A DNA stretch of 19,762 bases. Source: Candidatus Hydrogenedentota bacterium (lineage in GTDB: Bacteria; UBA8481; J006). Made by a program: the position numbers and the translations under genes. The DNA lies in contig RFFU01000125.1 of assembly GCA_003697085.1 (NCBI GenBank), positions 1-19,762 of the forward strand. Reading direction: 5' to 3'. This document shows, in pieces, positions 2,269 to 19,762 of this stretch. The stretch's first letter is position 1, and each line of letters opens with the position of its first letter. Below the pieces are notes generated by a model, which worked only from the letters and a program-made list of their open reading frames with translations, was not told the DNA's origin and did not search any database.

Positions 2269-2274
2269 GGAGGT

Positions 2275-2410: not shown

Positions 2411-2422
2411 TGAGTCCTTGCT

Positions 2423-2607: not shown

Positions 2608-2637
2608 TCGGCTGCCACGGAAGCAAGCATCTTCTGG

Positions 2638-2644
2638 AAAGGAG
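2638..2644 (+). promoter_or_regulatory. Shine-Dalgarno that fixes the tal start
   Basis: AAAGGAG lies 8 nt before GTG 2653. The longer reading from 2554 has no such site and would add 33 hydrophobic residues foreign to transaldolases. Confidence 0.75.
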
Positions 2645-2652
2645 ACGAGGAC

Positions 2653-3780: not shown

Positions 3781-3805
3781 AGCGGGGCCGCGGAGTGATC
3801 GCCGA

Positions 3806-4714: not shown

Positions 4715-5766
4715 GAACGCCAGGCGCTCGGCTCTCTTTTCGAGAACGATTTCTCTCCGCTTGCGCGCGCCGTCCTGTCGATCGGCTTCCTGTATGGATG
4801 ATGCGTCAGGCGGGTCGTTGTCTTCCCGAATACAATCGGATGAGGGAGCGGTTCTCCTTTCTCGAGATGGTTCGGAATCCGGAATTGGCGGAAGAGGTGA
4901 CGCTTCAGCCGATTCGGCGGTTCGGATTCGATGCCGCGATTCTCTTCAGCGATATTCTGGTGGTTTCCGAGGCCTTGGGGCAGTCCTACGAGTATTGCGA
5001 GCGGAGGGGAATCCGAATGGCGTTTCCGATCCGAAGTGGACGAGACGTCGGGCGGTTGAGCGAAGGAGGATTTTCGAAAAGGACGGCGTATGTCCGACAG
5101 GCGTTACGCGGAGTACGAAAGGCTTTGGGAAATCAGCGAGCTTTGCTCGGTTTTGCCGGATCTCCCTGGACATTGGCGGCGTTTATGATTTCCGGGGGCA
5201 GTAGAATCGAGAAGCCGCGGATCCTGCACTTCGTAAAGAATCAGGGGGAAGTTTTCGAAAACCTTATGGAAATTCTTACGCGAGCCGTGACGGTCCATTT
5301 GAAAAGTCAGTTGGAGGCCGGCGCCGATGCGGTTCAGATCTTCGACAGTCTCGCCGGACTTTGTCCACGGGGACGGTATCAGGATTTGTCCGGACGGTGG
5401 ATTGGTCGGATCGTACGCCGCCTCCCCCGTCGAAAACCCGTTATTGTTTTCGTGCGCGGTTACCGGGAAGGAATGAGGTGTCTCGGGGGATGGAAGACCG
5501 CCGTGATCGGGGTGGATCATACGCGTTCCCTTTTTCGGACGGCTCGGGCGCTGCCGCGGACGGCGTTGCAAGGAAACCTCGATCCGGCTGTACTTTTGTG
5601 CGAGCCGGAAGCGGTGCGGATGAAAACGAGAAGGATCGCACGTTACGGCGAACTCCGGCCCGGCTTCATCTTCAATCTCGGCCACGGCGTCCCTCCGAAT
5701 GCTTCGTTGGAAAATATCGCCGCGGTGGTCGAGACCGTGCGTTCCGTGTGTCCGTTTCGAGGATGA
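4711..5766 (+). CDS. hemE: Uroporphyrinogen decarboxylase
   Basis: HemE converts uroporphyrinogen III to coproporphyrinogen III by four decarboxylations, in the cytosol. The 351-aa length is normal. The N-terminal signature PVWMMRQAGRCLPEY is at 27-41, the active-site Asp in FSDIL is Asp81, FDSLAG is at 211-216, and the conserved His in NLGHG is His325. The position equivalent to human UROD Tyr164, in the PWTLxxY motif, is Phe158 here (PWTLAAFM). The usual RQAGRY is RQAGRC. The ATG overlaps the preceding stop and has GGAG six nucleotides upstream. The gene overlaps hemH by 4 bp, giving a tight hemE-hemH pair. Identity is secure; the Phe is unusual. Confidence 0.95.
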   Translation: MRTPGARLSFRERFLSACARRPVDRLPVWMMRQAGRCLPEYNRMRERFSFLEMVRNPELAEEVTLQPIRRFGFDAAILFSDILVVSEALGQSYEYCERRGIRMAFPIRSGRDVGRLSEGGFSKRTAYVRQALRGVRKALGNQRALLGFAGSPWTLAAFMISGGSRIEKPRILHFVKNQGEVFENLMEILTRAVTVHLKSQLEAGADAVQIFDSLAGLCPRGRYQDLSGRWIGRIVRRLPRRKPVIVFVRGYREGMRCLGGWKTAVIGVDHTRSLFRTARALPRTALQGNLDPAVLLCEPEAVRMKTRRIARYGELRPGFIFNLGHGVPPNASLENIAAVVETVRSVCPFRG

Positions 5767-6809
5767 GGACGGGAGGGACGACGGGGGTTCTTCTCCTCAA
5801 CCTCGGGTCTCCGGCGCGACCCACCGCGTTCGCACTGATGCCGTATCTTCGGGAGTTCCTGATGGATCCCGCGGTGATCGATCTGCCGTACTGGAGGCGC
5901 TTTCTTCTCGTTCACGGACTGATTCTTCCTTTTCGCTCCTTCCGTTCGGCCCGGGCGTATCGTCGGATTTGGACCAAGGAAGGTTCTCCGTTGATTGCAA
6001 TCACCTTTCGCGTGCGAAGAGAGTTGGAGAAAAAACTGGGGATGCCGGTCGCGGTGGGAATGCGGTACGGTCACCCGAGGACGAGGGAGGCTCTGGAACA
6101 ACTGCGGGATGCCGGTGTCGAAAAAATCGCGGTTCTGCCCCAGTATCCTCAATTCGCCTCCGCCAGTTATGAAACAGCCGTCCAGCATCTTTTTAGGAAC
6201 GCGGGGATGTTCTCGCGAGAGGATATGAGAGTTTTGCCGCCGTTTTTCGAGGAACCGCGTTATCTGGATTGTCTCGCGAATTCCTTGCGAGACGTGTTGG
6301 CCCCGGAGGATGCACTGCTTCTGAGCTTTCACGGGGTTCCGGAGCGGCATCTGCGAAAGGCGGATCCAACAGGCGCTTATTGCCTTTCGAGCCGGGAGTG
6401 TTGTCGGCGGGTTCCGCAAGAAGTATTGGCGCGGTGTTACCGCGCGCAATGTTATCGGACGGCGGAGGAGGTGGCGCGGCGTCTCGGGCGGGAGATTGCG
6501 GACGATCCTGCGGAAGGGAAGGTTTCGCTGGGGTTCCAGTCGCGTCTCGGGAACGACCGGTGGACCCGGCCGTACACGGACGAACTTCTCCTCAAAGCCG
6601 GTGAAATGGATATTGCGAATTTGAAGGTGGCCTGCCCCTCCTTCACGGCGGATTGCCTTGAGACGCTTGAGGAAATCGGAATGGAGGGAAGGAGGATATT
6701 CGAAGAGGCCGGAGGCGGGCGATTCGCCTTGATTCCATCTTTGAACGATCGCCCGGAATGGGTGGAATTGCTGGCAGCGTACGCAAGGGAATTGCTTGAG
6801 TGGGGATGA
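5763..6809 (+). CDS. hemH: Ferrochelatase with a cysteine-rich insertion
   Basis: Ferrochelatase inserts Fe2+ into proto- or coproporphyrin. The protein is 348 aa when started at the ATG overlapping the hemE stop. The frame stays open far upstream, but MRTGGTTGVLLLNLGSP is the typical N-terminus. The metal-site His is His190 in LSFHGVP, and the conserved Glu is in ADCLETLEE (about 297-304). Between about 200 and 232 lies DPTGAYC..ECC..CYRAQC, with Cys207, 213, 214, 225 and 230. Some bacterial ferrochelatases carry a [2Fe-2S] cluster on an internal cysteine segment at this place, so a cluster is inferred here but not shown. No protoporphyrinogen oxidase gene is adjacent. Confidence 0.95.
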   Translation: MRTGGTTGVLLLNLGSPARPTAFALMPYLREFLMDPAVIDLPYWRRFLLVHGLILPFRSFRSARAYRRIWTKEGSPLIAITFRVRRELEKKLGMPVAVGMRYGHPRTREALEQLRDAGVEKIAVLPQYPQFASASYETAVQHLFRNAGMFSREDMRVLPPFFEEPRYLDCLANSLRDVLAPEDALLLSFHGVPERHLRKADPTGAYCLSSRECCRRVPQEVLARCYRAQCYRTAEEVARRLGREIADDPAEGKVSLGFQSRLGNDRWTRPYTDELLLKAGEMDIANLKVACPSFTADCLETLEEIGMEGRRIFEEAGGGRFALIPSLNDRPEWVELLAAYARELLEWG

Positions 6810-6912
6810 GCGAGACGCGGCCGTCGTTATCCTCCTTGCCGGGTTCCGCATCGCGATACCTCCTCAGGAATTTTCTTGGACAGCGAAGGCGAGAAGTGTT
6901 TTCATTACGTCC

Positions 6913-7443
6913 GTGAAGAGATTTCGAAGACGAAAGCGTTCTCTCGACGGGTGCGTCGCCGGGCCTTTCCTTTCTCTGGCCGGGCTGCTCCTACTGGGAG
7001 TTTTCTCTTTTTCGACACCCGTTGTCGCGGCGGAAACGGTTCCTTCCGGTTCGGACACGGCGGCGGCGGTCTCTTCGGCCTCCGGCTCCTCGCTCTTCGT
7101 TTCAGAAGCGGGTTCCGCGCTTGCTGCGTCTCTCGATACGGTGATCGTCTATCCGAATCCGTTCATTCCGAACGATGGCAACGACCGCACGGGAAGGCCT
7201 TTCGAACCGGCGACGGCGGGGACGGGAATCATCTTCGACAATCTTCCCGGACAAGTCGATATCCGCGTGTACGATGTTGCAGGGCGTCCCGTGGCAACCT
7301 TGACGAAAAGTTCGGCTGAGGGACGCTACCGCTGGGATGTCCGCTCCGACGACGGTCGGGATCTCGATTCCGGAATCTACTTCGCTGTGCTCGTGTCCTC
7401 CGCCGGAGACGTAGCCGTCAAAAAAATAATGATCATTCGCTGA
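6913..7443 (+). CDS. Small exported protein with FlgD-like/sorting-type C-terminal domain
   Basis: The frame is open from 6796 (TTG, inside hemH). GTG 6913 is preferred because it gives a proper signal peptide: an Arg/Lys-rich start, a hydrophobic stretch at about 13-34, and a likely cut after PVVAA (40). The start lacks a clear Shine-Dalgarno and is uncertain. After a Ser/Ala/Gly-rich linker (41-75), the rest is one C-terminal module: VIVYPNPFIPNDGN (77-90), a FDNLP...IRVYDVAGRPVATL strand pair, RYRWDVRSDDGRDLDSGIYF, and a VKKIMIIR tail. This module normally ends large surface or secreted proteins (FlgD-Ig-like, or type IX sorting domain-like). Here it stands almost alone, 176 aa in total. 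The function is unknown. Confidence 0.75.
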   Translation: MKRFRRRKRSLDGCVAGPFLSLAGLLLLGVFSFSTPVVAAETVPSGSDTAAAVSSASGSSLFVSEAGSALAASLDTVIVYPNPFIPNDGNDRTGRPFEPATAGTGIIFDNLPGQVDIRVYDVAGRPVATLTKSSAEGRYRWDVRSDDGRDLDSGIYFAVLVSSAGDVAVKKIMIIR

Positions 7444-7470
7444 GACGCACCTTTTTTTGCCGGGCCTGCG

Positions 7471-8757
7471 ATGCTTTGTTACGAAGAAAGAACGGTGCGT
7501 TCCGAAGATGCTTGTCCTTCAAGAAGACGGGTTCTCTTTGCGGCGCTGGCGGGGCTCTGTGCCGTGTTGTTTCTTGCCTTCGGCGGGACGGGAGTTGAGG
7601 CGAGGGAATGGAGAAAAGGGGAGACGCTCGTGACAGTCGTGTTTCGATTGGAATTGCCGCCGGGAACTCCGGCAAGCGATACGATCTACCTGGCGGGGAA
7701 TCTTCCGGAGGTGGGAGAATGGTCGCCGGCGGGAGTCCCCGCGGAACGGACGGGTCCGCGGACGGCCGAGGTGCACGTGAAACTGCCGCCCGGGCGGCGT
7801 CTGGAATACAAATTCACGCGCGGGGATTGGAGTCGGGTGGAAAAGGATGCTTCTTTTCGCGAAATCGCCAATCGCCGTCTCCTGATTCCCCAACTTTCCG
7901 ATCCGAAATCGAAAAGGGTTTTGTCGGTGGTGGTCGAAGCGTGGAGCGATTTCGATACGTCGCGACGGAAGGTCGAATCGACCCTGACCGGCACGATACG
8001 TTTTCACCGGGATTTTCCTTCCCCGGAACTCGGCAATACCCGCACCGTGGCGGTATACCTCCCGCCGAATTACAATTCGGACACCACGCGGCGTTATCCC
8101 GTGATCTATGCCCACGACGGCCAAAACCTCTTTGACGCGGCGACGTCCTTCGCGGGGGTCGAATGGGGAATCGATGAGGCGTGTGAGGGATTGATAGCGA
8201 GCGGCGAGATTCCCCCCGTCATCGTCGTCGGAGTTTACAATACAAATCACCGGATGGCCGAGTACACGCCGGTTTCGGATAAGCGGAACGGTGGGGGGAG
8301 AGGGCGGCTTTACGAGAGGTTCCTGGTTTATCGATTGAAGCCGTTCATTGATTCGAACTATCGGACCCTACCCGATCGGGAGCATACAGGATTGCTGGGG
8401 TCCTCTCTCGGGGGGCTGATCGCGCTTCATCAACTCTTTGTGGATTCAAAGGTCTTTTCCCGCGCCGCCGCCGTCTCGACTTCCTTCTGGTGGGGAGGCG
8501 GGTGGATCTTCGATTATCTCGAATCCGTCCCCCCGCCTCCCCAACCGACCTTCCTCTGGCTCGATATGGGAACGGAGGAGGGGGACGCGCCGGGGGAGAG
8601 TGTTTTCGGACTGGAACGAGCCGCGGAGATCGTGCGAAAACGCGGACTGATCGCGCCCGAGCGGTTGCACGTCGAGGTTGTGGAGGGTGCGTCCCACAAC
8701 GAGCGCTTTTGGAGTGCGCGGATCGATCGGATACTGAAGTTTCTTTGCCGATGGTAA
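7471..8757 (+). CDS. Exported esterase with N-terminal CBM20-like domain
   Basis: The 428-aa protein has an Arg-rich start and a hydrophobic segment at 21-38, with a likely signal cleavage after GVEA (44). Residues about 52-138 look like a starch-binding/CBM20-type beta domain (YLAGNLPEVGEWSP). Residues about 190-428 are an esterase-D-type alpha/beta hydrolase: PVIYAHDGQNLFD (210-222), the nucleophile elbow GSSLGG with Ser312, and His409 in EGASHNERFW. The acid is probably in FLWLDMGTEE (361-370). Such proteins hydrolyse carbohydrate or siderophore esters, and the actual substrate is unknown. GTG 7495 is an alternative start. The gene lies 27 bp after another exported protein, so shared expression is likely. 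Confidence 0.85.
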   Translation: MLCYEERTVRSEDACPSRRRVLFAALAGLCAVLFLAFGGTGVEAREWRKGETLVTVVFRLELPPGTPASDTIYLAGNLPEVGEWSPAGVPAERTGPRTAEVHVKLPPGRRLEYKFTRGDWSRVEKDASFREIANRRLLIPQLSDPKSKRVLSVVVEAWSDFDTSRRKVESTLTGTIRFHRDFPSPELGNTRTVAVYLPPNYNSDTTRRYPVIYAHDGQNLFDAATSFAGVEWGIDEACEGLIASGEIPPVIVVGVYNTNHRMAEYTPVSDKRNGGGRGRLYERFLVYRLKPFIDSNYRTLPDREHTGLLGSSLGGLIALHQLFVDSKVFSRAAAVSTSFWWGGGWIFDYLESVPPPPQPTFLWLDMGTEEGDAPGESVFGLERAAEIVRKRGLIAPERLHVEVVEGASHNERFWSARIDRILKFLCRW

Positions 8758-8790
8758 GGATAGTGTATTTCCGAGTAATATCTCCGGCTT

Positions 8791-9999
8791 ATGAGGAGAA
8801 ATAGGTCTCGAGCGCTGATTTCTGGGGGGGCTTTCTGGCGAATTGTGGGACCGGCGATGGCCGTGATGTGCGCCGGAGCTGTCGATATGCAGATGGTTCA
8901 ACCCCTGATAGCGCTTTTCGCCGAAGTGTTCGATATCGATCCAGGGACCGCAGGGCACATTGTCAGTGTTTATGCGATCGGCTCGGCCCTTGCCGCTCCA
9001 CTTGCGGCCCCGATCGTTGTGCGTGCGGGAACGGTTCGTATGATGCAAGCGGGGGTGTTGCTCGTGATCTTCGGCGAACTGGCCGGCGTGGCGACGACAA
9101 CCTTCGGTATGCTGTCGGCGACACGGCTGATCGTGGGAGCGGGGGCGGGGATCGCGATGACCCTCTGTCATGTCCTCGTGATCGAACGCCTTCCGAAGTC
9201 GCTGCGCGGCCGTGCCGTGGGCTGGTTGACGAGTGCCTTCTTTCTCGCGGCGATCGTCGGTGTTCCCACCACCTCCTATCTCGCTGATGCTTTCTCGTGG
9301 AAACTGGCTTTTCTTGCGGCGGCGGCTGTCAACGCGATCGCGCTTGTCGCTCTTCTGGTTGTGCCGCATACGCGGAGCGAGTTTCCCTTTCGGCTGAGCG
9401 AATTTCGATCACTGGTGCGTTATCCGGGAATGCTTCCCGGCCTGACCGTTTTTGCCACCTATGCGGCGGGCTACACGATGATCTTGACCTTCTTCGCGCC
9501 GCATGCCGCGGAGCGGTTTCGGATTACGGCCACCGGAGTCGGGCTCGCTACGATGTTCGGGGGGGGCCTGGCGTTTCTGGCGGCTCCGGCGGGCGGGTGG
9601 GCGGCGGACCGGTTCGGATATCTTCGGGTTGCGAGAACGGCGAATTCAATGCTGGCGGTCTCCTTCCTTGCGCTTCCCTTCCTGACGACGGTTTCCGGGA
9701 CCGTGACGCTTTACGCGCTCTGTGCGCTCATTGCGTCGTGGCGTTTCACAGCGACGATTCCCTGGTTGGCGGCCTTGGCCCCACCGGGCCATCAGGCTCC
9801 CGCGCTTCTGCTCAACAACACGCCTATTCTCATCGGAATGTTTCTCGGTTCGTATCTTGGAGGGTGGTTCTATTCCTGGGGAGGCTATGCGTTGACAGGT
9901 CTTGCGGCGGGTGGAGTCACGGTCGCCGGCACGCTTCTTTTGCTCCGGGTCGAGAGGGCGGAACGGGCGGCGGAGGTGCCGGCCTCCGGTGGGGTATGA
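8791..9999 (+). CDS. Major facilitator superfamily transporter
   Basis: This is a 402-aa, strongly hydrophobic protein with about 12 predicted membrane segments in two halves. The central cytoplasmic loop lies around HTRSEFPFRLSEFRSLVRYPG. The first half carries a DHA1-like pattern (ERLPKSLRGRAVGWLTSAFFLAAIVG), which points to an efflux permease of the AraJ/drug:H+ antiporter type. The substrate cannot be read from sequence. The start has no Shine-Dalgarno, but TAATAT sits 9 nt upstream of the ATG, again compatible with a short or absent leader. It is 33 bp after the esterase, and its stop is 1 bp from the mgtE stop on the other strand. Confidence 0.88.
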   Translation: MRRNRSRALISGGAFWRIVGPAMAVMCAGAVDMQMVQPLIALFAEVFDIDPGTAGHIVSVYAIGSALAAPLAAPIVVRAGTVRMMQAGVLLVIFGELAGVATTTFGMLSATRLIVGAGAGIAMTLCHVLVIERLPKSLRGRAVGWLTSAFFLAAIVGVPTTSYLADAFSWKLAFLAAAAVNAIALVALLVVPHTRSEFPFRLSEFRSLVRYPGMLPGLTVFATYAAGYTMILTFFAPHAAERFRITATGVGLATMFGGGLAFLAAPAGGWAADRFGYLRVARTANSMLAVSFLALPFLTTVSGTVTLYALCALIASWRFTATIPWLAALAPPGHQAPALLLNNTPILIGMFLGSYLGGWFYSWGGYALTGLAAGGVTVAGTLLLLRVERAERAAEVPASGGV

Positions 10000-10000
10000 C

Positions 10001-11344
10001 TCAAAGGAGAACTCCGCTGAGGAAATATCCCGCGACCGTGAAATAGATCAACACACCGGCGACATCCACTATCGTTGCCACGAAGGGAGCCGAGGCACTG
10101 GCCGGATCGAAGCCTGCGCTCCGAAGAAGGAAGGGCAGCATGGATCCGGTGATGGTTCCCCACATAACCACGCCCACGAGACTGATTCCGACCGCGACGG
10201 CCAGCAGGAGATAATGTTCGCCGTAAAGCCCGCCCAGTTCGTGCCAGAGTATAATCCGAAAGAACCCGATGATTCCCAGAAGGCAACCCAAAGCAAAGCC
10301 GACGGAAATTTCCCGCCGTAGGATCCGCCACCAGTCCCTCAAGCGCACCTCGCCCAGAGCCATGGCGCGGATGATGATCGTGGTCGCCTGAGAGCCGGAA
10401 TTGCCTCCGCTGGAGATGATCAGTGGAAGGAAGAGAGCCAGGACGACGGCTTCCGCGATCTCCTTCTCGAAATAGGCCATTACGCTGGCCGTGAGCATCT
10501 CGCCGAGAAAAAGAACCGTTAGCCATCCTCCGCGTTTTCGGATCATTTCTCGAAAGGAAACCCGCCAGTACGGTTCGTCGAAGGCGTCCGTGCCGCCCAT
10601 CTTGTGAATGTCCTCTGTTGCTTCCTCCACAACGACATCGACCACGTCGTCCACCGTGATGATTCCTTTCATCCGTCCTTCTCTGTCCACGACCGGCATC
10701 ACGGTCAGGTCGTATTCGGCGAAAAGTTCACCGATCTTTTCCTGATCCGTTTCTTCCGTGACCGAAATGAAATCGGTTTTCATGATGTCCTTGATTTTGT
10801 CGTTGGAATCGGAGGCGAGGAGGTGCATGAAGGAAACGAGGCCGAGAAGCCGCTCGTTCGAATCGATGACATAGGCCCAGGCGATCTTCCCCTCCGTCGA
10901 GCGGATTTGTCGTCGAAGATAGGTGAGGGCTTCGCCGACGGTCATATCCGGGCGGACGCGCAGGTAGCGAGGATTCATCAACCCTCCGGCCACATCCTCG
11001 GCGTACGCCAGCAAGGCCTGAACCTCGATCCGCGTGTTCGGAACGAGAAGGTCGAGAAATTCCCGCCGTCGTTCTTCCGGGAGTTCCTGGATCAAATCCG
11101 AGACATCGTCGGGGGGAAGGAGGCGTATCAGAGCGCGACAGCGGCTGTGAGGGAGAGCCAAAAGGAGTTCGGCCTGATCGGACGAGGGGAGGCGCATAAA
11201 GAAATCCTCGGCGGTTTCTTCGTTCAGAAGCCGGAAGCCCTCGACACGTTCGGCGGTATCCAACAAGGGCCAAGCGTCGTCGAGTTCCGCGTCCGTGAGC
11301 GGCTGTTCCTCGACTGAGTTCGATTTTTCTTCCAATTTCAACAT
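10001..11344 (-). CDS. mgtE: Magnesium transporter MgtE
   Basis: MgtE is a gated Mg2+ channel of the inner membrane. The 447-aa length is typical. The cytosolic N domain covers about 20-125 (ending DVAGGLMN), and the two CBS domains cover about 126-245 (TVMPVVDREGRMKGIITVDDVVD). About five membrane helices follow from 275 on. The pore signature appears as LPLIISSGGNSGSQA (307-320), compared with the common GGNAGTQ, and the conserved Asp is in VATIVDVAG. ATG 11344 is chosen because the upstream extension to 11479 is low-complexity. It is preceded by GGAGAAAGAAG. I looked for an M-box-like Mg2+ riboswitch in the upstream 330 bp and did not recognise one. Confidence 0.95.
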   Translation of the reverse strand: MLKLEEKSNSVEEQPLTDAELDDAWPLLDTAERVEGFRLLNEETAEDFFMRLPSSDQAELLLALPHSRCRALIRLLPPDDVSDLIQELPEERRREFLDLLVPNTRIEVQALLAYAEDVAGGLMNPRYLRVRPDMTVGEALTYLRRQIRSTEGKIAWAYVIDSNERLLGLVSFMHLLASDSNDKIKDIMKTDFISVTEETDQEKIGELFAEYDLTVMPVVDREGRMKGIITVDDVVDVVVEEATEDIHKMGGTDAFDEPYWRVSFREMIRKRGGWLTVLFLGEMLTASVMAYFEKEIAEAVVLALFLPLIISSGGNSGSQATTIIIRAMALGEVRLRDWWRILRREISVGFALGCLLGIIGFFRIILWHELGGLYGEHYLLLAVAVGISLVGVVMWGTITGSMLPFLLRSAGFDPASASAPFVATIVDVAGVLIYFTVAGYFLSGVLL

Positions 11345-11674
11345 CGGTCGTCTTCTTTCTCCAAGCCGCGAGTCTATCGAGATTCGCCGAAGAGGGAACG
11401 AAAAACCGGTTGAGAATTGCGGAAACGAAGGAGAGGAAGAGGGCTGCGATGGGAGGAAGGATATGCAGCAGGTACTCATTGTTCAAAAAAAACAGCCGGC
11501 CGAAATATCGCCGATCGGTGGTACGTTTCCTGGAAACCGTCGGGGATTCCCCTTTGGATTTTGGTATCGAAATCATCCCCAAGGTGCGAAACTGTCAAAC
11601 TGTAAGAATGACACCTTTTTTTGTTGCAAGAGAGTTCGAAAACGCGTTGAATGAGGGTCGGTGACCGGCTTCTC
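11345..11674. other. 330-bp gene-free region between mgtE and tRNA-Gln
   Basis: No convincing gene is present. Reading frames here overlap the tRNA or are low-complexity. It must hold the divergent mgtE and tRNA-Gln promoters. A TTGACA hexamer on the - strand (complement of TGTCAA, near 11594-11599) lacks a good -10 partner. The leader of mgtE would be long if transcription starts there. Confidence 0.5.
11624..11652 (+). promoter_or_regulatory. Candidate promoter of tRNA-Gln
   Basis: TTGCAA (11624-11629), a 17-nt spacer and TTGAAT (11647-11652) each match consensus at 4/6. They end 22 nt before the mature tRNA 5' end. Spacing and position are right and sequence quality is moderate. Confidence 0.45.
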
Positions 11675-11750
11675 TGGGGCGTAGTTCAACTGGCAGAACG
11701 GCGGGTTCTGGCCCCGTAGGTTGGAGGTTCGAGTCCTCCCGCCCCAGCCA
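11675..11750 (+). tRNA. tRNA-Gln (anticodon CTG)
   Basis: A complete 76-nt cloverleaf is present. The acceptor TGGGGCG/CGCCCCA has the weak U1:A72 pair typical of tRNA-Gln. The D-stem is GTTC/GAAC. The anticodon stem GCGGG/CCCGT has loop TTCTGGC, giving anticodon CTG for CAG codons. The T-arm is GGAGG-TTCGAGT-CCTCC, with discriminator G and encoded CCA. Its last 21 nt plus 4 nt downstream are duplicated at 11913-11937. Confidence 0.97.
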
Positions 11751-11754
11751 ACGA
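11730..11754 (+). repeat. Direct repeat copy 1 (tRNA-Gln 3' end)
   Basis: This 25-bp stretch runs from CGAGTCC in the T-loop through the encoded CCA to ACGA just past the gene. It is identical to 11913-11937. It is arranged like the att core found when elements integrate at tRNA 3' ends. Confidence 0.9.
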
Positions 11755-11912
11755 AAAAAGACCAGAAACGAAGCCAAAAGACCAAAGAGCAGGACCACTG
11801 GACTCGAAGCCGCCTGAACGGCCAGCCCAACGGCTGGTGAGCCGCAGGGATGCGGCGAAAGAGAAGGCGGCAGGTCGGAGACGCGAACGCAGGAGGCGTG
11901 AGCGGCGGAGAC
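11755..11912. mobile_element. 158-bp structured non-coding insert bounded by tRNA-Gln tail repeats
   Basis: This segment lies between two exact copies of the tRNA-Gln 3' end. The first part is A-rich, and the rest is GC-rich with consecutive hairpins: GCCG/CGGC at 11809-11822, CCAGCC-CAAC-GGCTGG at 11822-11837, and GCCGCA-GGGA-TGCGGC at 11841-11856. GGACTCGAA at 11800-11808 is the reverse complement of the T-loop TTCGAGTCC. No integrase or credible ORF is present. It could be a tiny non-autonomous element, the scar of a larger excised island, or a slippage duplication. The mobile label is inference. Confidence 0.45.
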
Positions 11913-11937
11913 CGAGTCCTCCCGCCCCAGCCAACGA
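11913..11937 (+). repeat. Direct repeat copy 2 (tRNA-Gln 3' end)
   Basis: This exact second copy of the 25-bp tRNA-Gln tail is offset by 183 bp. It carries CGCCCCAGCCA (acceptor strand, discriminator and CCA) but has no tRNA body upstream, so it is a fragment and not a gene. Confidence 0.9.
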
Positions 11938-12030
11938 TTCCTCCTGTTTCAGCCGGTATGCTCGATTACCCTTTTTTCCTTTCCCTCAATGAGGAATGCC
12001 AATTCCCTCGGAATCCGATAGACTTCCCGC

Positions 12031-13773
12031 GTGAAGAAATTCGAAAATGGAACCGCGGGAATAGTGAAGGAACCGGTCTTGGGTATCTGGGGGTATTCTT
12101 CAGATGCTCCAGAAGTGGCTCATCACGATTCCGGAGCGGCTCTCATCGCCGATGGACGGGTTCTCGCCGCCGTAAATGAGGAGCGGTTTACGCGAAACAA
12201 GAACGAGGGACGATGGCCGCAGGCATCGATTCGTTATGTCCTCGATGAAGCCGCGCTCGATATCAAGGATGTGGCGCTGGTGGGGATGGCCGGTCTGTCT
12301 CCGTTGCCTCGCGCCGTCGTGATGGGCACGGAATTGTTAAGAGCCTTCCTTCGCACCGGATCGTTTCTACCCAACCGCTGGCTTTACGCCCTCTTGACCG
12401 CGAAAAAACTGCGGCGTGTTCCTCCGGCGGGGACTCGATGCGGTGTTCGCTTCGTCGATCATCACACCGCTCACGCCGCTTCCGCGTTCTTTACATCCGG
12501 TTTCGAAAGAGCCGCGGTCGTAACCCTCGATGGAATCGGCGATTCCGCATGGTGCGGTGGGGTCTGGAGAGCCCAAGGGACGCGCTTGGAGTGTCTGCGC
12601 CGATTCACCGGGTATGCCTCGCCGGGTCTTCTTTATTCCTATGTAACGAAGTCATTCGGTTTTCGTCCGGCGCGACACGAGGGCAAGGTAACCGGTTTGG
12701 CCGCGTATGGAGATCCGGAGCGCCTCCTTCCGGAATTCCGCGGGTGTTTGTCGTACTGCAACCGGCGGCTCTATTCCGACTTCATTCCGACCCTCTTTCG
12801 AGCGCGGGTGGATGCGGAGTGGGAATCGAGCTGGATCGACCGTTTGCTCGATTCTCACTCCCGCGAGGACATCGCGGCGGCGCTTCAACGGCACACGGAG
12901 GAGATCGTCGTTGCGATCGTGAAGGATGCGGTGGAGGATACCGGATTGGAAGATGTCGCGGTTGCGGGGGGAGTCTTTGCAAATGTGGCCGTGAATCGGA
13001 AGGTCCGCGAGAATATTTCCGGACGACTTTGGATTCACCCGAATATGGGAGACGGAGGCTTGGGATTGGGGGCGGCGTGCTTTGCGGCGCGGACGCACGT
13101 TTCGTTCCCGGATGTCTTTCTCGGCCCTTCTCCTTCTCCAGCGGAAGAGCCCCGTCCGCCCGACTTCATCCCAAAGAATCCGGCCCGCTTCCTTGCCGAG
13201 GCGGTCGCGGCCGGTCGTGTGGTCGGGGTTGTTCGGGGGCGGATGGAATACGGCCCCCGCGCTCTCGGTCACCGCTCCATCTTTGTCAAGGCCGATGATG
13301 CTTCCATCAACGAGTCCCTCAATCGGCGTTTGAAGAGGACCGAATTTATGCCGTTCGCGCCGATCATGACAGAAACCGCGGCTCGACGTTTTCTTCGAAA
13401 CTGGAATCCCGGGGATCGACCGTCCCGCTTTATGACGATCACCTACGATGTGACGGAGGATTGCCGCCGAGCGGCTCCCGCCGTCGTGCATGTTGATGGA
13501 ACGGCCCGCCCTCAGGTTGTATCCGGCGACGAGGATCCCTTTCTGAAGGAGTTTCTTGAGGAATACGGCCGCCTCGCCCCCGGCGGTTCCGGGAGTTACG
13601 GCGGAGGTGCGGGGACGGAGATCGTCGTGAATACCTCCTTCAACGTGCACGAGGAGCCGATCGTCTGCTCCGTCGAAGATGCGTTACGCTCGCTTGAAAG
13701 AGGCGCTGTTGATCTTGTGTTGACCGATAAAGGTGTGTATGGTTCGCCCGCGGAGTGGGAGGAGATATCATGA
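12031..13773 (+). CDS. NodU/CmcH-type carbamoyltransferase
   Basis: This 580-aa enzyme transfers a carbamoyl group from carbamoyl phosphate, via a carbamoyl-adenylate, to a hydroxyl on a sugar or small molecule. The Kae1-like N-domain shows HHTAHAASAFF (144-154, metal-binding His), VTLDGIGD (164-171), AGGVFANV (312-319) and NMGDGGLGLGAA (338-349). The C-terminal carbamoyltransferase domain shows GRMEYGPRALGHRS and VNTSFNVHEEPIV. A Gly/Ser-rich stretch (PGGSGSYGGGAG) sits just before the last motif and looks like a lineage-specific loop. The start is GTG 12031, with TAGACT 6 nt upstream. GTG 12064 is an alternative. It overlaps the WecA-like gene by ATGA, suggesting a glycan substrate. Confidence 0.9.
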   Translation: MKKFENGTAGIVKEPVLGIWGYSSDAPEVAHHDSGAALIADGRVLAAVNEERFTRNKNEGRWPQASIRYVLDEAALDIKDVALVGMAGLSPLPRAVVMGTELLRAFLRTGSFLPNRWLYALLTAKKLRRVPPAGTRCGVRFVDHHTAHAASAFFTSGFERAAVVTLDGIGDSAWCGGVWRAQGTRLECLRRFTGYASPGLLYSYVTKSFGFRPARHEGKVTGLAAYGDPERLLPEFRGCLSYCNRRLYSDFIPTLFRARVDAEWESSWIDRLLDSHSREDIAAALQRHTEEIVVAIVKDAVEDTGLEDVAVAGGVFANVAVNRKVRENISGRLWIHPNMGDGGLGLGAACFAARTHVSFPDVFLGPSPSPAEEPRPPDFIPKNPARFLAEAVAAGRVVGVVRGRMEYGPRALGHRSIFVKADDASINESLNRRLKRTEFMPFAPIMTETAARRFLRNWNPGDRPSRFMTITYDVTEDCRRAAPAVVHVDGTARPQVVSGDEDPFLKEFLEEYGRLAPGGSGSYGGGAGTEIVVNTSFNVHEEPIVCSVEDALRSLERGAVDLVLTDKGVYGSPAEWEEIS

Positions 13774-14840
13774 CGCAGGAGACACGGTTTCTGTTGACGT
13801 TTCTCGTCGCGATGTCCCTTTCCTATCTGCTCACGATGGTGATCCGCCGCCTTTCGACGAAACTTCAACTTCTCGATTTCCCAGATGAGCGCAAGATTCA
13901 TCGTCGCGCCGTGCCGTATCTCGGCGGTGTCTCCGTCTTCGTCGGTTTCATGATGGCCGTGGGCGTGGCGTTGCACATCGACCGCGGTTTTCGTTTCGAG
14001 TTTCTACGTGAGTTCATCGGACTCTTTGTCGCTACGTCGATCATCTTTCTTCTTGGTATCTTCGACGATCTTGGAGGCTCGACCGCCACGATCAAGTTCG
14101 CCTTTCAGGCCGTGGCGGCGACGGTCTTGTGGGGCTACGGGTACAGGATCGACCAGGTTTCCTGGCTCTTCGGCGGGACGATTCATCTCGATCCGATATC
14201 GGGGTGGCTTCTCACGATTCTGTGGTTCTGGTCGGTTACGAACGCGATGAATCTCATCGACGGTCTCGACGGTCTTTGCTCGGGAATCGGAGCCATCGCC
14301 GCGACAACGCTTTTTTGGGCGGGACTTCTGCGTCAGGAGCCGGTATTGCCGTTCTTGGCGATTGCCCTCGCCGGGGCGCTTATCGGGTTTTTGCCACATA
14401 ATTTCCATCCGGCGAAGATATTTCTCGGTGACACCGGCAGCCTCACGATCGGCTTCCTCATCGCGGCCATGGGTTTGGTTTCCTTCTCGAAGGCCGCCAC
14501 GCTCGTGAGCCTGCTCGTGCCAACGGCCGCGCTTGCCCTTCCCGTGACGGATACGTTGCTGGCGATCCTTCGCCGCCGGCATTTACGAACGAATATCTTT
14601 CAGGCTGACAGAAAGCACATCCATCACCGCCTTCTCAGACTTCTGCCTCACGACCGAGCGGTCGTTCTTCTGCTTTTGCTCACAGGCTATTCCTCGGTGC
14701 TCGGCCTCGTGATGTCGGTTACAAACAAAACCACCTCCTTCTGGATTCTCCTGTTGCTTGTAGGAAGCCTGGCCTTGGTCATCGTGGTTCTTCGTTTGAT
14801 TGAACGAGCCAGCGGAATCGATTATCTTGACGAACCCTGA
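13770..14840 (+). CDS. WecA/TagO-like undecaprenyl-phosphate sugar-1-phosphate transferase
   Basis: This integral membrane enzyme of 356 aa has about 10-11 helices. It loads a HexNAc-1-phosphate onto undecaprenyl phosphate to start a surface polysaccharide. Diagnostic cytosolic motifs are DFPDERKIHRRAVPYLGG (36-53), GIFDDLGG with Asp99/Asp100, NAMNLIDGLDGL (158-169), FLGDTGSL (218-225) and HIHHRLLR (283-290). It is not MraY, because the HIHH/DxxR pattern and the lack of mur/fts neighbours fit WecA/TagO. The ATG overlaps the carbamoyltransferase TGA and has GGAGGAG upstream. An internal frame from 13755 would only add MGGDI. Confidence 0.92.
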   Translation: MTQETRFLLTFLVAMSLSYLLTMVIRRLSTKLQLLDFPDERKIHRRAVPYLGGVSVFVGFMMAVGVALHIDRGFRFEFLREFIGLFVATSIIFLLGIFDDLGGSTATIKFAFQAVAATVLWGYGYRIDQVSWLFGGTIHLDPISGWLLTILWFWSVTNAMNLIDGLDGLCSGIGAIAATTLFWAGLLRQEPVLPFLAIALAGALIGFLPHNFHPAKIFLGDTGSLTIGFLIAAMGLVSFSKAATLVSLLVPTAALALPVTDTLLAILRRRHLRTNIFQADRKHIHHRLLRLLPHDRAVVLLLLLTGYSSVLGLVMSVTNKTTSFWILLLLVGSLALVIVVLRLIERASGIDYLDEP

Positions 14841-14843
14841 CGG

Positions 14844-14864
14844 CACGAGGGCTTCGTGATTATT
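14844..14864 (+). terminator. Weak terminator-like hairpin after the WecA-like gene
   Basis: CACGA-GGGCT-TCGTG is followed by ATTATTTT, 4 nt after the stop codon. The stem is only 5 bp, so termination would be partial at best. Confidence 0.3.
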
Positions 14865-14894
14865 TTGGCGGAAAGGATTGACGTCCGATTCGTG

Positions 14895-14914
14895 ACGTTC
14901 AACGAACGTGTTTT
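14895..14914 (+). terminator. Hairpin upstream of ftsY
   Basis: ACGTTC-AAC-GAACGT is a perfect 6-bp stem followed by GTTTT. It lies 22 nt before the ftsY start. It may end readthrough from upstream or form part of the ftsY leader. Confidence 0.3.
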
Positions 14915-14935
14915 CCAAGAAGGAGGAGAGGAACG

Positions 14936-15874
14936 ATGTTAACGCTGGCGGGGCGTCTCCGGCGCGGGCTGGAGAAGACCCGGAAAAAAATGAGCGCGGT
15001 GATCGACGTCGCCGTGGGGCGGGGTCTTTTCGACGATGCCGCCGCCGAGCAGATCGAGGAGGCGTTGATCGAGGCCGATATCGGGCCGGAGATCGCTTTA
15101 CGTCTTGTCGAGGATGTACGGGAGTGGGTGCGCTCGGCCGGCGGAGGCGTGACAGCGGAAACGGTTCGCGAAAAAATCGAAATGGATATAGCGGAAATTC
15201 TCCGCGGCTCCGGTTCGGGTCGGTCGGAAGAGATTCCGCCGAACGGGAATCATTCGAGCGAACAGCCGCGCGTGACAATCCTGGTCGGAGTCAACGGGAG
15301 CGGGAAGACGACGACGGCCGCGAAGTTGGCGGCCCAGGCCGCCGCGAGGGGCAGCCGCGTCTTGCTCGGAGCAGCCGATACCTTTCGCGCGGCCGCTATC
15401 GATCAACTCCGCGTGTGGGCCGAACGGATCGGGTGCGAATTCGTAGCCCAGGATCAGGGCGCTGATCCCGCGGCGGTCGCTTTCGACGCGGTTCAGGCGG
15501 GAAAGAGCCGCGGGTGTGACGAGGTTTTTATCGACACGGCGGGTCGCCTCCACACCCAAACGAATCTTATGGCGGAATTGGAAAAGGTGATTCGTGTTCT
15601 GGGAAAGATCAAGCCACCGGATCATTGTTTCCTCACCTTGGATGCCACGACGGGCCGCAACGGCCTTCAACAGATAACGACGTTCTCCCGTTCCCTTCCC
15701 GTGGACGGACTTATTGTGACGAAACTGGACGGGAGCGCTCGGGCCGGCGTGGTCGTCGAGGCGGTGGAACGCTTGAAGATTCCCGTCCGATATGTCGGAG
15801 TGGGGGAAACGGTGGAGGATCTGATGCCGTTCGATCCGGAAGCCTTTGCCCGGGAGTTGGTTCGAACGGAATGA
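14936..15874 (+). CDS. ftsY: Signal recognition particle receptor FtsY
   Basis: FtsY is the membrane-associated GTPase that docks SRP-ribosome complexes at the Sec translocon. The protein is 312 aa and consists of the NG domain only, without the long acidic A domain of E. coli FtsY. The N domain covers about 1-95. The G-domain motifs are GVNGSGKTTT (118-127), DTFRAAA (148-154), DTAGRL (200-205) and TKLDG (262-266). The GVN version of the P-loop separates it from Ffh. The usual DATTGQN is DATTGRN at 237-242, a small deviation. AGGAGG at 14921-14926 lies 9 nt before the ATG. The stop overlaps the ribD start (ATGA). Confidence 0.96.
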   Translation: MLTLAGRLRRGLEKTRKKMSAVIDVAVGRGLFDDAAAEQIEEALIEADIGPEIALRLVEDVREWVRSAGGGVTAETVREKIEMDIAEILRGSGSGRSEEIPPNGNHSSEQPRVTILVGVNGSGKTTTAAKLAAQAAARGSRVLLGAADTFRAAAIDQLRVWAERIGCEFVAQDQGADPAAVAFDAVQAGKSRGCDEVFIDTAGRLHTQTNLMAELEKVIRVLGKIKPPDHCFLTLDATTGRNGLQQITTFSRSLPVDGLIVTKLDGSARAGVVVEAVERLKIPVRYVGVGETVEDLMPFDPEAFARELVRTE

Positions 15875-16965
15875 CGAGGAAGCGGACGCTCCGTCGCGAC
15901 GAATTCTCGGAACAAGACCGCATCTTTATGGCCCGGGCGTTGGAGTTGGCGGAAGGCGGCCGTCCCACGGCTCATCCCAACCCTTACGTCGGGGCCGTGA
16001 TTGTTCACGGTGGAACCGTTCTTGCCGAGGGCTTTCATTCGCGCTTCGGAGCGTCTCATGCGGAAGCCGCGGCCATCGCGAGCGCGAGAGAGCAAGGGAT
16101 TTCACTCGAGGGCGCCACGCTCTATGTCACGCTCGAACCCTGCTGTCATTCCGGAAAGACTCCCCCCTGCACCAAGGCGATCATCGAATCGCGAATCGGC
16201 GAGGTGATTGTCGCCGTTCGCGATCCGAATCCCGCGGTGAACGGCGAAGGAATCGCGCGCCTGGAGAAGGCCGGACTCCGTGTGCGGTCGGGATTATTGG
16301 AAGAAGAAGCCGTCAAACTCAATGAAGCCTATTTTCATTTTCGCCGAACCGGCCTTCCGTTCGTGACGTGGAAATGCTGTCGAACGCTGGACGGCCGAAC
16401 GACGTACCGTCCCGGCACGCGTTCGAGAATCTCCTCTCCCGAGGCCGATGCGCGTGTCGACAGGCTTCGTGCGTCCGTGGACGCGGTGCTTGTGGGAAGC
16501 CGTACCGCCGCGATCGACAGACCGCGATTGCGGGTGCGAAGCGGAGCAGGGACGGATCCGTGGAGGATCGTATTTGATTCTCGCCTCGTTACGCCGCTCG
16601 ATTCTCCTCTCGTGGCCGAAAACAGCGACCGCCGTACGTTGATGATCGCCGCGGAAGGCGCGTCTTCGGAACGGATCGCGGAATATCGTGATGCGGGAGT
16701 GGAAGTGGACGTGGTTCCGGAAAGGAACGGTCATGTGGACCCGCGGGCCGCATTGGCTCGAATCGCCGAGCGCGGGATCATCGAGATCCTCTGTGAATCC
16801 GGAGAGACGTTGGGCCGCGCCTTGATGGAGGAAGGATTGTTGCGCCGCGTACTCCTTCTCCAGACGCCGCGTTTGACCGAGAGGGAAAGTGGAGAGATCG
16901 AGGCGATCGAGGAAGTTGGACCGGATCTCTTCATAAGCGTGGGGATGTCTTGTCGCGGAAATTGA
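15871..16965 (+). CDS. ribD: Bifunctional riboflavin deaminase/reductase RibD
   Basis: RibD deaminates the pyrimidine intermediate from GTP and then reduces its ribosyl side chain, the second and third steps of riboflavin synthesis. It is 364 aa when started at the ATG overlapping the ftsY stop. The deaminase domain (about 12-155) has HAE at 63-65 and PCCHSGKTPPC at 90-100, giving the zinc ligands. The reductase domain (about 160-364) begins PFVTWKCCRTLDGR and is divergent: the family ADDPRL is AIDRPRL, and the C-terminal EGGxxL motif is ESGETL. Activity of the second half is therefore less certain. No ribE, ribBA or ribH follows, so the riboflavin genes are probably scattered. Confidence 0.92.
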   Translation: MTRKRTLRRDEFSEQDRIFMARALELAEGGRPTAHPNPYVGAVIVHGGTVLAEGFHSRFGASHAEAAAIASAREQGISLEGATLYVTLEPCCHSGKTPPCTKAIIESRIGEVIVAVRDPNPAVNGEGIARLEKAGLRVRSGLLEEEAVKLNEAYFHFRRTGLPFVTWKCCRTLDGRTTYRPGTRSRISSPEADARVDRLRASVDAVLVGSRTAAIDRPRLRVRSGAGTDPWRIVFDSRLVTPLDSPLVAENSDRRTLMIAAEGASSERIAEYRDAGVEVDVVPERNGHVDPRAALARIAERGIIEILCESGETLGRALMEEGLLRRVLLLQTPRLTERESGEIEAIEEVGPDLFISVGMSCRGN

Positions 16966-17621
16966 GGCGGAAGCAGCGACCGATCCACCGGGGGGCACGA
17001 AAGGAATTGGTATCGTTTCTCATCCAGGCTGCGACACAGTGGCGGCTGACAGGCGCGTTGCTTCCTTCCTCCGCCGCGCTATGTCACGCAATGACCGACC
17101 CCTTGGCGCGGGATTCTCGCGCTGCATCGCGGATGATTCTCGAAGTGGGGGCCGGAACGGGGGTCATTACGGAAGAAATCGTTCCTCTGATGTCACCTCG
17201 CGATCGTCTTGTCGTCTACGAATTGTCCGAGAGGCTCGGAGAACGGTTGAAGTACAGGGCCAAAGGCCCCGAATGGAGCGGGCGCGATATCGAGATTCGT
17301 GTGAAGCCGTTTCCGGAAGGAACCGAGGATGAGCATTACAACTTCGCTGTCTGTTCCCTTCCCTTCAACAATTTTCCGGCTTATATGGTTCATATCTGTT
17401 TGAAGACCTTCTCGAAGATTCTGACTCCCGGCGGTGTGTTGACGTTCTACGAATACTGCCACCTGCGTAATCTGCGCCTTCAGTTCGCAAATCGGAAGGA
17501 GTTTATTCGATTGAGGCGGATCGACCGCACGGTGAAGTCGTTCCTGAAAACCCATCATGGCCAGTGCCGTCACGTACTGATCAATGTCCCGCCGGCTTGG
17601 GTGTATACGATCCGCTTTTGA
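16950..17621 (+). CDS. PmtA-like SAM-dependent methyltransferase
   Basis: This is a class I methyltransferase of 223 aa. Features are a TGALLPSSAALCHAM lead-in (34-48), the SAM-binding motif I ILEVGAGTGVIT (63-74), the acidic ribose-binding Glu91 after strand 2, and SLPFNNFP (136-143) as motif IV. The TGAxxPSS and LPFNNF patterns are typical of bacterial phospholipid N-methyltransferases (PmtA) and close relatives of rRNA dimethylases. Phosphatidylethanolamine methylation is the best guess but unproven. The start is TTG 16950 inside ribD. TTG 16962 would give a TTGA overlap with the ribD stop. The gene is coupled to ribD without an obvious functional link. Confidence 0.75.
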   Translation: MSRKLRRKQRPIHRGARKELVSFLIQAATQWRLTGALLPSSAALCHAMTDPLARDSRAASRMILEVGAGTGVITEEIVPLMSPRDRLVVYELSERLGERLKYRAKGPEWSGRDIEIRVKPFPEGTEDEHYNFAVCSLPFNNFPAYMVHICLKTFSKILTPGGVLTFYEYCHLRNLRLQFANRKEFIRLRRIDRTVKSFLKTHHGQCRHVLINVPPAWVYTIRF

Positions 17622-17758
17622 GGGGAAAACTGTTGGATGACGGAAAAACTTTATTTCAGAGATCCCCAGGTTCCAGAGGAAGTTACGATTCAGAGGCCAA
17701 GATACCGTGGCAGGCGGCGGTCCGCCGGCTTACCTGTGGCGGCTCGGAGGACTCTGAT
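17622..17758. other. Convergent intergenic region
   Basis: This 137-bp stretch separates the 3' ends of the methyltransferase and thpR genes. A GC hairpin, GGCGG-CGGT-CCGCC (17713-17726), could act on either strand, but no T-run follows it. No gene or tRNA is seen. Confidence 0.5.
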
Positions 17759-18319
17759 TTAAATCTCCCGGCGGAACAACGGTGTGTAGATGGGACCCTG
17801 TTTCGTGAGTTGGCTTTCGTATAACACCACCGGAGTAGCGGGTTGAGAAGGAAGAAACAACTTCCTTCCGGAAAAGTATTCTCGAAAGAGCCGTTCCATC
17901 TCGCGATAGCGGGTTGTCGGAACCCGACCGACGGTGATGTGGGGAGAGAAGGGGCGTTCATCGCAGGGAAGATCCGCTTCCCTCAAAAGAGTCGAGAGAA
18001 GGCGATGGAGATCGAGCAAACCGGGGTCGGGAGCGATTCCCGTCCAGAGAACGCCGCGCCGCCCGTGTCGGAAGTGTCCGGTTTCCGTGAAGGAGAGGGT
18101 TGCGCCGCGTATTTTGTCGGTCAGAGGACTTTCCTCGAGACACTGACAGAACCAGCGGGCATCCTCGACGGGTACGGAGCCAAGAAAGTGCAGGGTGAGA
18201 TGCCAGAGGGAACTCTTCACCCAACGGACACGGGGAAAGAGGACGCGCCAGGGGCTGATCTGTTCATTGAGCGCTTCGCGGACAGCGGGTGCGAGCGGGA
18301 TTCCGATAAAGAGGCGCAT
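17759..18319 (-). CDS. thpR: RNA 2',3'-cyclic phosphodiesterase (2'-5' RNA ligase family)
   Basis: This 186-aa LigT/ThpR-type 2H phosphoesterase opens 2',3'-cyclic phosphates on RNA. The two catalytic HxTx motifs are HLTL (40-43) and HITV (127-130), the latter within the family motif SPHITVGR. The start MRLFIGIPL is typical. A longer reading from 18373 would add 18 residues encoded inside cinA. The ATG overlaps the cinA stop (TGATG), so translation is coupled. cinA and ligT-like genes are known neighbours in Deinococcus, often with recA, but recA is absent downstream here. Confidence 0.93.
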   Translation of the reverse strand: MRLFIGIPLAPAVREALNEQISPWRVLFPRVRWVKSSLWHLTLHFLGSVPVEDARWFCQCLEESPLTDKIRGATLSFTETGHFRHGRRGVLWTGIAPDPGLLDLHRLLSTLLREADLPCDERPFSPHITVGRVPTTRYREMERLFREYFSGRKLFLPSQPATPVVLYESQLTKQGPIYTPLFRREI

Positions 18320-19584
18320 CAACGCTCTCTGAGAGCCTGAAGCAGGAGAAGAAGCGCCGCATCGACGGCGCAAGCGCGGACCTCCTCGCGATTTCCACGA
18401 TACCGTCGGTGTTCGACGAGGCGGCGGCGCTGGGAGACCACGGCCAGAAAGACGGTTCCGACGGGCTTTTCTTTCGAACCGCCGGCGGGACCGGCGATCC
18501 CGGTGATTCCGATACCGAAATCGGAGTGGAACCGCTTGCGGACACCCGAGGCCATCGCAAGGGCAACCTCGGCGGAGACGGCACCGTGGGTGGCAAGAAT
18601 GTCCGAGGAGACGCCGAGAAGACGTTTTTTGATCTCGTTATCGTAGGCAATGACGCCTCCGAGAAAGAGGCGGGAAGCGCCGGGAACGTTCGTGAGCGCT
18701 TTTCCCAGCGCTCCGCCGGTACAGGATTCCGCGGTTGCGATCGTTTTTTCTTCCTTTGAAAAAGTCCGAACAACGGCCTCCGCGGGCGTTTCACCGGTAC
18801 AAGTAAAAATTCGCTCGCGAAATCGCTTCCGTACGGCTCGTTTCACCGCAGAATCGTCCGTCACCACCGTCAGGAATTCGCGTGAGGGGAGAATCGAGAC
18901 CTGCCCGCGCCGAATGGATTCAAGATGCAACAGCGCATCCTCGAAGGCGGCTTCGCGAAGGCCGGCAAGGCCGAAGACGGCCGTTTTTCGCCGCGTCTTC
19001 GGTGTCGGAACGAGCAAACGGAAGAGGCGGGCGAATCCCCGTGAATCGAGGATCGCGGCCAGCTCGGCCGGAACACCCGGAAGCGCCAGAAAGAGCCTCC
19101 GGCCGGAACGGAGAAAGAAAGGGTCAGCGAGGCCGAGAGGATTTCTGCCCACGACGGCCGTCTTCGGGAAACGACAGAAGGTGTCGTAACGCGGAGTCCA
19201 TTTCAGGCCGCGCTGCCGGACATTCCTCCGGATGCGTTGCTCGACGGCGGGGAAGGAGACGAGCGGTTTTCGGGAATGGCGCGCGAGGAAGGAACGCGTG
19301 AGATCATCGCGCGTCGAACCGAGGCCTCCCGTCAGGAGAACGAGGCGGACTCTCGTGCCGTTCAGGGCGCGACGGAGAGCCGAAGGGTTGTCGGGGACGA
19401 AGAGGACCTCGGAGAGCGCCAGCCCCTGACGCGCGAGGAACCGCGTCACGAGAGGCACTGCGGCGTCACGCCGTAAACCACTGACGATCTCGGAGCCGAT
19501 GACGATCAGCGAAACACTTGTGTCGGGAAACTCGGAGTCGGCTTGACGCCGAAGGACGCACGAGATGGAGGAGGGAGAGGCCAT
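18319..19584 (-). CDS. cinA: CinA family nicotinamide-nucleotide amidase/pyrophosphatase
   Basis: The 421-aa protein has both usual domains. The N-terminal molybdopterin-binding-like domain (about 25-190) has the motif TGGLGSTRDDLT at 85-96 and probably hydrolyses ADP-ribose-type substrates. The C-terminal NMN deamidase domain (about 265-421) has AESCTGG at 285-291 and TGIAGPAGG at 361-369. It serves NAD salvage and repair and is competence-linked in some bacteria. The N-terminus before residue 24 is longer than needed, but no better in-frame start is visible. There is no Shine-Dalgarno, and a promoter sits directly upstream. Confidence 0.93.
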   Translation of the reverse strand: MASPSSISCVLRRQADSEFPDTSVSLIVIGSEIVSGLRRDAAVPLVTRFLARQGLALSEVLFVPDNPSALRRALNGTRVRLVLLTGGLGSTRDDLTRSFLARHSRKPLVSFPAVEQRIRRNVRQRGLKWTPRYDTFCRFPKTAVVGRNPLGLADPFFLRSGRRLFLALPGVPAELAAILDSRGFARLFRLLVPTPKTRRKTAVFGLAGLREAAFEDALLHLESIRRGQVSILPSREFLTVVTDDSAVKRAVRKRFRERIFTCTGETPAEAVVRTFSKEEKTIATAESCTGGALGKALTNVPGASRLFLGGVIAYDNEIKKRLLGVSSDILATHGAVSAEVALAMASGVRKRFHSDFGIGITGIAGPAGGSKEKPVGTVFLAVVSQRRRLVEHRRYRGNREEVRACAVDAALLLLLQALRER

Positions 19585-19592
19585 CGGGCGGG

Positions 19593-19621
19593 AGTATGAG
19601 ACGACGGAAACGGAAAATCAA
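19593..19621 (-). promoter_or_regulatory. Promoter of cinA-thpR, possibly leaderless
   Basis: On the - strand, TTGATT (19621-19616), a 17-nt spacer and CATACT (19598-19593) match -35 and -10 boxes at 4/6 each. The -10 ends 8 nt before the ATG, so the transcript would start at or within 1-2 nt of the start codon. Confidence 0.45.
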
Positions 19622-19714
19622 GAGCGGCGTGCGGGGGGCGTGGCTCGCGAAATTCGTGCGGGATTGAAAGGCTTGGAGATAAAGCGCGGGAATTTTTGAA
19701 CCGATAGAAGAAAC

Positions 19715-19762
19715 GTGAAGAGTCCGGGCTTTCCAGTTGTGAGCATTACATTTCTGGCGGCG
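19715..19762 (+). CDS. Possible start of a + strand gene cut by the window edge
   Basis: GTG 19715 opens 16 codons to the window end (MKSPGFPVVSITFLAA), preceded by AGAAGAAAC. It is divergent from cinA, where a neighbouring gene would be expected. It is far too short to identify, and the rest of 19585-19714 shows nothing besides the cinA promoter. Confidence 0.25.
   Translation, partial: MKSPGFPVVSITFLAA

Follow-up and report, generated by a model that had tools for sequence, protein, structure and literature searches.

Structured non-coding units that end in the tail of the upstream tRNA: a tRNA-linked repeat in a Candidatus Hydrogenedentota bacterium and its counterparts in other phyla

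The tRNA-Gln(CTG) gene of a Candidatus Hydrogenedentota bacterium (assembly GCA_003697085.1, contig RFFU01000125.1, positions 1 to 19,762; this whole stretch of 19,762 nucleotides is referred to as the window) is directly followed on its 3′ side by a non-coding unit of 183 bp that ends in that tRNA's own tail. The unit is of the tRNA-linked repeat (TLR) kind, i.e., a non-coding cassette composed of a tRNA tail, a lead or terminator, an inverted T-arm and a body of hairpins, bounded on one side by the T loop of a tRNA and on the other by a repeat of that tRNA's tail. The analysis supports this description by the anatomy of the units, by the covariation between their inverted T-arm and their tail, and by their turnover, and the identity of the feature as a tRNA-tail unit is held with far more confidence than the whole mechanism that we propose for it. 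TLRs were described in E. coli in 1978, where 22 units at ten loci end in 18–19 bp of the upstream tRNA or rRNA and had no known function until binding of Hfq and CsrA in vitro was reported for three of them (PMC8144298). The window unit fits the descriptive definition of a TLR while standing outside the RtT sequence family: it lies immediately downstream of a tRNA gene, its 3′ end repeats the last 21 bases of the tRNA and 4 flanking bases at 25 of 25 bp, the kind being described by an identity of 18–19 bp or more, and it belongs to a family found at about ten loci, sometimes in tandem. The initial annotation of this DNA, made from the sequence alone, had considered that such a unit, if it recurred at other tRNA tails of the genome, would represent a little-described class; the class was in fact already on record as the TLRs of E. 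coli (PMC8144298). The results presented here show that this kind of unit is widespread and matched to its tRNA, and that it is probably structured as DNA.

The 25-bp direct repeat CGAGTCCTCCCGCCCCAGCCAACGA (Table 1), whose exactness and 183-bp spacing had been pointed out in the initial annotation, was confirmed at 100% identity. It is the single direct-repeat family detected by a repeat search between positions 11400 and 12400, and a simple calculation puts the chance of a 25-nt exact repeat inside 1 kb at the order of 1e-10. It comprises 21 bases of the tRNA, starting at C56 of the T loop, and 4 flanking bases. Copy 2 has no tRNA body, and ARAGORN predicts no second tRNA there. Inspection of the open reading frames revealed no plausible gene in the 158 bp between the copies, nor any integrase ORF or remnant. 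The inverted T-arm closes the unit by stem P1, formed by its GGACTC and the GAGTCC found in the tail copy (11914–11919). The position of the lead, which forms no clear hairpin in the window unit, is occupied in many relatives by the tRNA terminator. A hammerhead ribozyme was considered and rejected (15.8 bits against an Rfam gathering threshold of 48.5).

Table 1. Features of the tRNA-Gln locus and of the unit behind it, in window coordinates.
Feature	Position	Strand	Basis
tRNA-Gln(CTG) gene, encoded CCA; T loop bounds the repeat on the left	11675–11750	+	ARAGORN; Rfam RF00005, 64.5 bits
Direct repeat copy 1, from C56 in the T loop through T stem and acceptor to CCA and 4 further bases	11730–11754	+	25/25 identity to copy 2
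Lead, from tRNA end to inverted T-arm; no clear hairpin in the window	11755–11799	+	Sequence; leads compared
Inverted T-arm GGACTCGAA	11800–11808	+	Structure; covariation with tail in other units
Body domain 1: stem P2 (11809–11815 with 11865–11871)	11809–11871	+	Consensus structure, compensatory changes
Hairpins inside P2: P3, and P4 with GGGA loop	P3 11821–11838; P4 11841–11856	+	Consensus structure
Body domain 2: hairpin P6 (loop AGGAG) enclosed by stem P5 (GGTC/GACC)	11873–11913	+	Consensus structure; covariance model R1
Direct repeat copy 2: repeated tail that closes the unit on the right	11913–11937	+	25/25 identity; no tRNA predicted there

Related units occur at other loci of the same genome. 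BLAST of 11751–11937 located them 3′ of tRNA-Val(CAC), tRNA-Asn(GTT) and tRNA-Ser(TGA), and a screen of the 42 distinct tRNAs of the genome added Arg(ACG), Arg(TCG), Ser(GCT), Ser(GGA) and Asp(GTC). A covariance model built exclusively from these own-genome units (R1) has 10 matches in the genome, among which the window unit, itself a member of the model, scores 114.6 bits over 11800–11919. Units stand behind about ten tRNAs, and the recurrence at other tRNA tails that had been raised as a possibility was borne out. In every intact unit the tail copy equals the tail of its own tRNA, and each unit carries, close to its 5′ side, the reverse complement of the 3′ strand of the T-arm (GGANTCGAA), which pairs with the tail copy. 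An alignment of five intact units spans 121 columns and gives a structure of 40 pairs, 17 of which display double changes. The tail copy is lost at Arg(TCG) and Asp, and a contig end interrupts the unit at Ser(TGA). Degenerate second copies are present at Val, Arg and Ser, and at Ser(GCT) and Ser(GGA) the first unit is followed downstream by the beginning of a unit of another type. The Asp unit has its lead in common with the Ser units, yet the Asp tail. One Asn-type unit (L023, 480–720) is devoid of an intact tRNA, and the sequence upstream of it resembles a decayed tRNA-Asn. Several contigs of this genome (L022, L024 and L083) end in or near units, so the copy number in the assembly is probably an undercount.

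The phylum is sampled by two genomes only, that of the window and a related one (G001). R1 finds no match in G001, which has its own shorter unit, built to the same plan, after Ser(GCT), Ser(CGA), Pro(CGG, in tandem), Gly(CCC) and Leu(GAG); its two Ser tail copies track a one-base difference between their own tRNAs. The tRNA-Gln(CTG) gene of G001 has no such unit in the stretch examined, and the empty alleles described below come from Collinsella.

The same plan extends well beyond this phylum. The genomes of GTDB r220 were scanned with a pattern combining a tRNA T-arm, an inverted T-arm and a tail at set spacings, a pattern biased to one unit size and to intact sequence. At least 117 stretches were retrieved, most of them with a genuine repeat of the tail of the tRNA upstream, and the matches listed include Spirochaetes, Coriobacteriia, Clostridia, Patescibacteria, Desulfuromonadales, Planctomycetota and Paenibacillaceae. 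Among these listed matches, 84 distinct intact units were used for counting. In 83 of the 84, the inverted T-arm and the tail are complementary at their variable base (TA 42, CG 21, AT 18, GC 2), a pairing that the pattern did not impose and that independence would yield in roughly a third of units by our estimate from base frequencies, and the tail copy agrees with its own tRNA in all 84. The reversed control pattern returned nothing in 16 carrier genomes. R1 matches units in Spirochaetes, Planctomycetota, Desulfuromonadales, Seleniivibrio and others, and Rfam gives no gathering-level match for the units. Some haloarchaeal matches were set aside because of another spacing or the lack of a real tail copy; at two of these loci (L146 and L162), the tail of tRNA-Leu(TAG) is found again 110–122 bp downstream at a different spacing, possibly as integration remnants. 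Matches on viral contigs are mostly ordinary tRNA arrays, with three real units beside tRNAs or provirus ends. On one such contig (L359, 9594–11178), an integrase-like ORF at the contig end is followed by a partial tRNA T-arm and tail and then by a tail unit, and seems to belong to a provirus integrated at a unit-bearing tRNA.

For comparison, the units of the E. coli tyrT/tyrV and lys clusters were retrieved. The E. coli TLRs (tyrT/tyrV 178-bp repeats, lys cluster; rtT/RttR, RF00391) resemble the units described here in that they stand behind tRNAs, occur in tandem, measure 98–178 bp, end in a copy of the upstream tRNA's tail, and contain an inverted tail that pairs with the tail copy around hairpins. 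Their body sequence is unrelated to that of the window unit: with E values of up to 0.5 admitted, Rfam RtT (RF00391) matches the E. coli units but leaves the window unit unmatched, and R1 does not match the E. coli units. A test for the common plan showed no TLR in the leu, gly, arg/his and gln clusters of E. coli. A literature search found no report of the TLR kind outside enterobacteria; as it covered few subscription papers, this is weak evidence.

The turnover of units is best seen at the tRNA-Phe locus, which was compared in 43 genomes of one Collinsella genus. The empty allele consists of the tRNA, its terminator and the flank. The filled allele has the sequence of the empty form up to the end of the terminator, then the body, a second 63-bp copy running from the T loop to the terminator end (exact in several genomes) and the unchanged flank. 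On a tree of the tRNA and downstream flank, parsimony gives 6 state changes, at least 3 of which are forced by well-supported branches. Because of these changes and because the outgroup rows are empty in 8 of 8 cases, the tree supports a history in which a unit would have been gained before the inner clade, then lost or regained; deletion between repeats can account for the empty alleles. In the same genus, the Lys, Gln and Ser tRNAs are followed by similar bodies but by their own tails, terminators and inverted T-arms. Two terminator types exist at Lys(TTT) loci, and two Lys arrays, from two genomes, have one type in the distal position and another in the proximal one, which would follow from a unit bringing in its own terminator. 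Tandem arrays of units have a period of 170–200, and their neighbors may be identical or, at the other extreme, differ in body after a common tail, so that the tandem duplication suggested earlier forms part of the picture. The insert is thus neither unique nor without empty sites. The interpretation put forward in the initial annotation is partly supported, by the recurrence and by these filled and empty alleles of another genus; mobilization by an integrase in trans, or an assignment of the repeats to tyrosine-recombinase attL/attR sites, would be further assumptions. A candidate autonomous version (L235), with a tail copy 2.5 kb away, was rejected, as it contains small ORFs and resembles DNA inserted between units of a tandem; there (2741–4865), two near-identical tail units behind tRNA-Tyr are separated by about 2.1 kb that has ACCA at each edge and is possibly a separate insertion at a tRNA tail copy.

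In the complete explanation that we favor, to which we give an even chance, the unit would act as folded single-stranded or cruciform DNA. Its inverted T-arm would pair with T-loop and tail sequence and thereby address the unit to the T loop of a tRNA, where a recombinase supplied in trans would join it. The incoming unit would provide a working tail, with or without a terminator, and shift the old tail downstream. Since the tail would come with the unit, the tRNA would remain functional and arrays could grow beside it. The lead is an inverted copy of the acceptor strand over at least 7 nt in 25 of the 84 listed units, against 3.4 expected, which suggests that fold-back copying may intervene at some step. 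Some observations count against this explanation. A simple cassette moving between tRNAs would bring the tail, terminator and inverted T-arm of its source, and those seen are local to each tRNA; to pass to a tRNA whose tail differs, a unit would need a further, unexplained step. No mobilizing enzyme was found: the units have no ORF, their neighbors are housekeeping genes without a common family, and Y1 transposases are not universal among carriers.

One rival, which we consider unlikely, is that the unit is a structured RNA, i.e., a read-through tRNA trailer that is retained because it benefits the host and acts as a small RNA, for example through GGA loops that bind CsrA or Hfq. Nearly all hairpin loops of the units in the window's genome and in G001 contain GGA, as in CsrA-titrating RNAs of the CsrB/RsmY type, csrA is present in both genomes, and the strong fold and compensatory changes would suit an RNA. 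In E. coli, the TLR family members rrA, rrB and rrF bind Hfq and CsrA in vitro, but the other 19 TLRs were rated unlikely CsrA binders (PMC8144298). Many units also have a terminator between the tRNA and the body, and the units of Coriobacteria and Clostridia have no GGA loops. Hairpins kept as RNA should, moreover, tolerate G.T (G.U) mismatches above A.C. The ratio of G.T to A.C is 59:5 in lead terminators and 42:2 in tRNA acceptor stems of the same loci, whereas it is 37:27 in body hairpins (p 0.26; Fisher against leads 1e-5). For the subfamily to which the window unit belongs, the ratio is 4:6, from only 10 informative mismatches; a less reliable R1-based alignment across phyla likewise lacks a G.T excess, and a Collinsella-only alignment was too conserved for this test. 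The 120-nt window unit folds as DNA with a z of −4.27 against shuffles, and a longer window stretch as RNA with a z of −2.29, the differing lengths making this a loose comparison. Since a G.T excess is absent from the bodies, these seem, as far as base substitutions can tell, to be conserved as folded DNA rather than RNA, or to be palindromes kept perfect by DNA processes. Along with the lineages lacking GGA loops, the wobble test weakens the case for a CsrA sponge as general function, which was set aside.

A second explanation, which we likewise judge unlikely, involves no dedicated mobility at all. Rare illegitimate duplication would spread the units, and slippage, inter-repeat deletion, gene conversion and palindrome template switching would homogenize tails, stems and bodies. 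Identical tandem units are in line with such processes, the empty alleles fit losses between direct repeats, template switching would yield stems that are Watson-Crick only and free of strand bias, and the lead is often an inverted copy of the acceptor strand. However, this explanation accounts neither for one compact body family behind many tRNAs of a genome nor for the common plan across phyla.

Mobilization by a Y1 HUH transposase, as in IS200/IS605 or RAYT/REP systems, with the inverted T-arm as guide for both cleavage sites, appears very unlikely. The units do share with REP sequences and non-autonomous IS200/IS605 derivatives their hairpin DNA and guide-like junction pairing, a single guide-like sequence pairing with both flanking T-arm copies, and 14 of 23 carriers have Y1 genes. 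Unlike those elements, the units have a long tRNA tail at their ends, and Y1 was not found in 9 of the 23 carriers, including the complete Brucepastera genome. Furthermore, the only Y1 transposase match of the window's genome (C64:23519-23842) is adjoined by copies of another repeat, the 23-bp inverted-repeat-like motif TGTCAAACTGTAAGAATGACACC, which is also found just upstream of tRNA-Gln (window 11593–11615) and has 51 copies in the genome with up to 2 mismatches (control 0); this family and the Y1 gene look like a REP/RAYT pair.

Finally, an ordinary attL/attR scar left by a phage or island once inserted at tRNA-Gln and since shrunken, akin to the excision scar initially considered, is nearly refuted: the T-loop-to-tail identity block is typical of tRNA-targeting integrases, but the window unit, of 183 bp, is a member of a recurring structured family, with the same compact body at about ten tRNAs and across phyla, and contains no integrase remnant.

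A bolder reading, which we hold to be possible though rather less than probable, is that the units are a phylum-spanning, minimal form of mobile DNA, gene-free and self-addressed to tRNA genes by base pairing, with the inverted T-arm as guide and the tail copy keeping the tRNA alive; the E. coli TLRs would be its first-seen members. The origin of those TLRs has stayed unexplained since 1978, and their function mostly so. The same plan in many phyla, along with a covarying inverted T-arm, filled and empty alleles and a DNA-type hairpin signature, turns what was an E. coli curiosity into a general class of elements, from which T-loop joints or circles, retargeting through the inverted T-arm, and an enzyme traceable by co-occurrence would be predicted.
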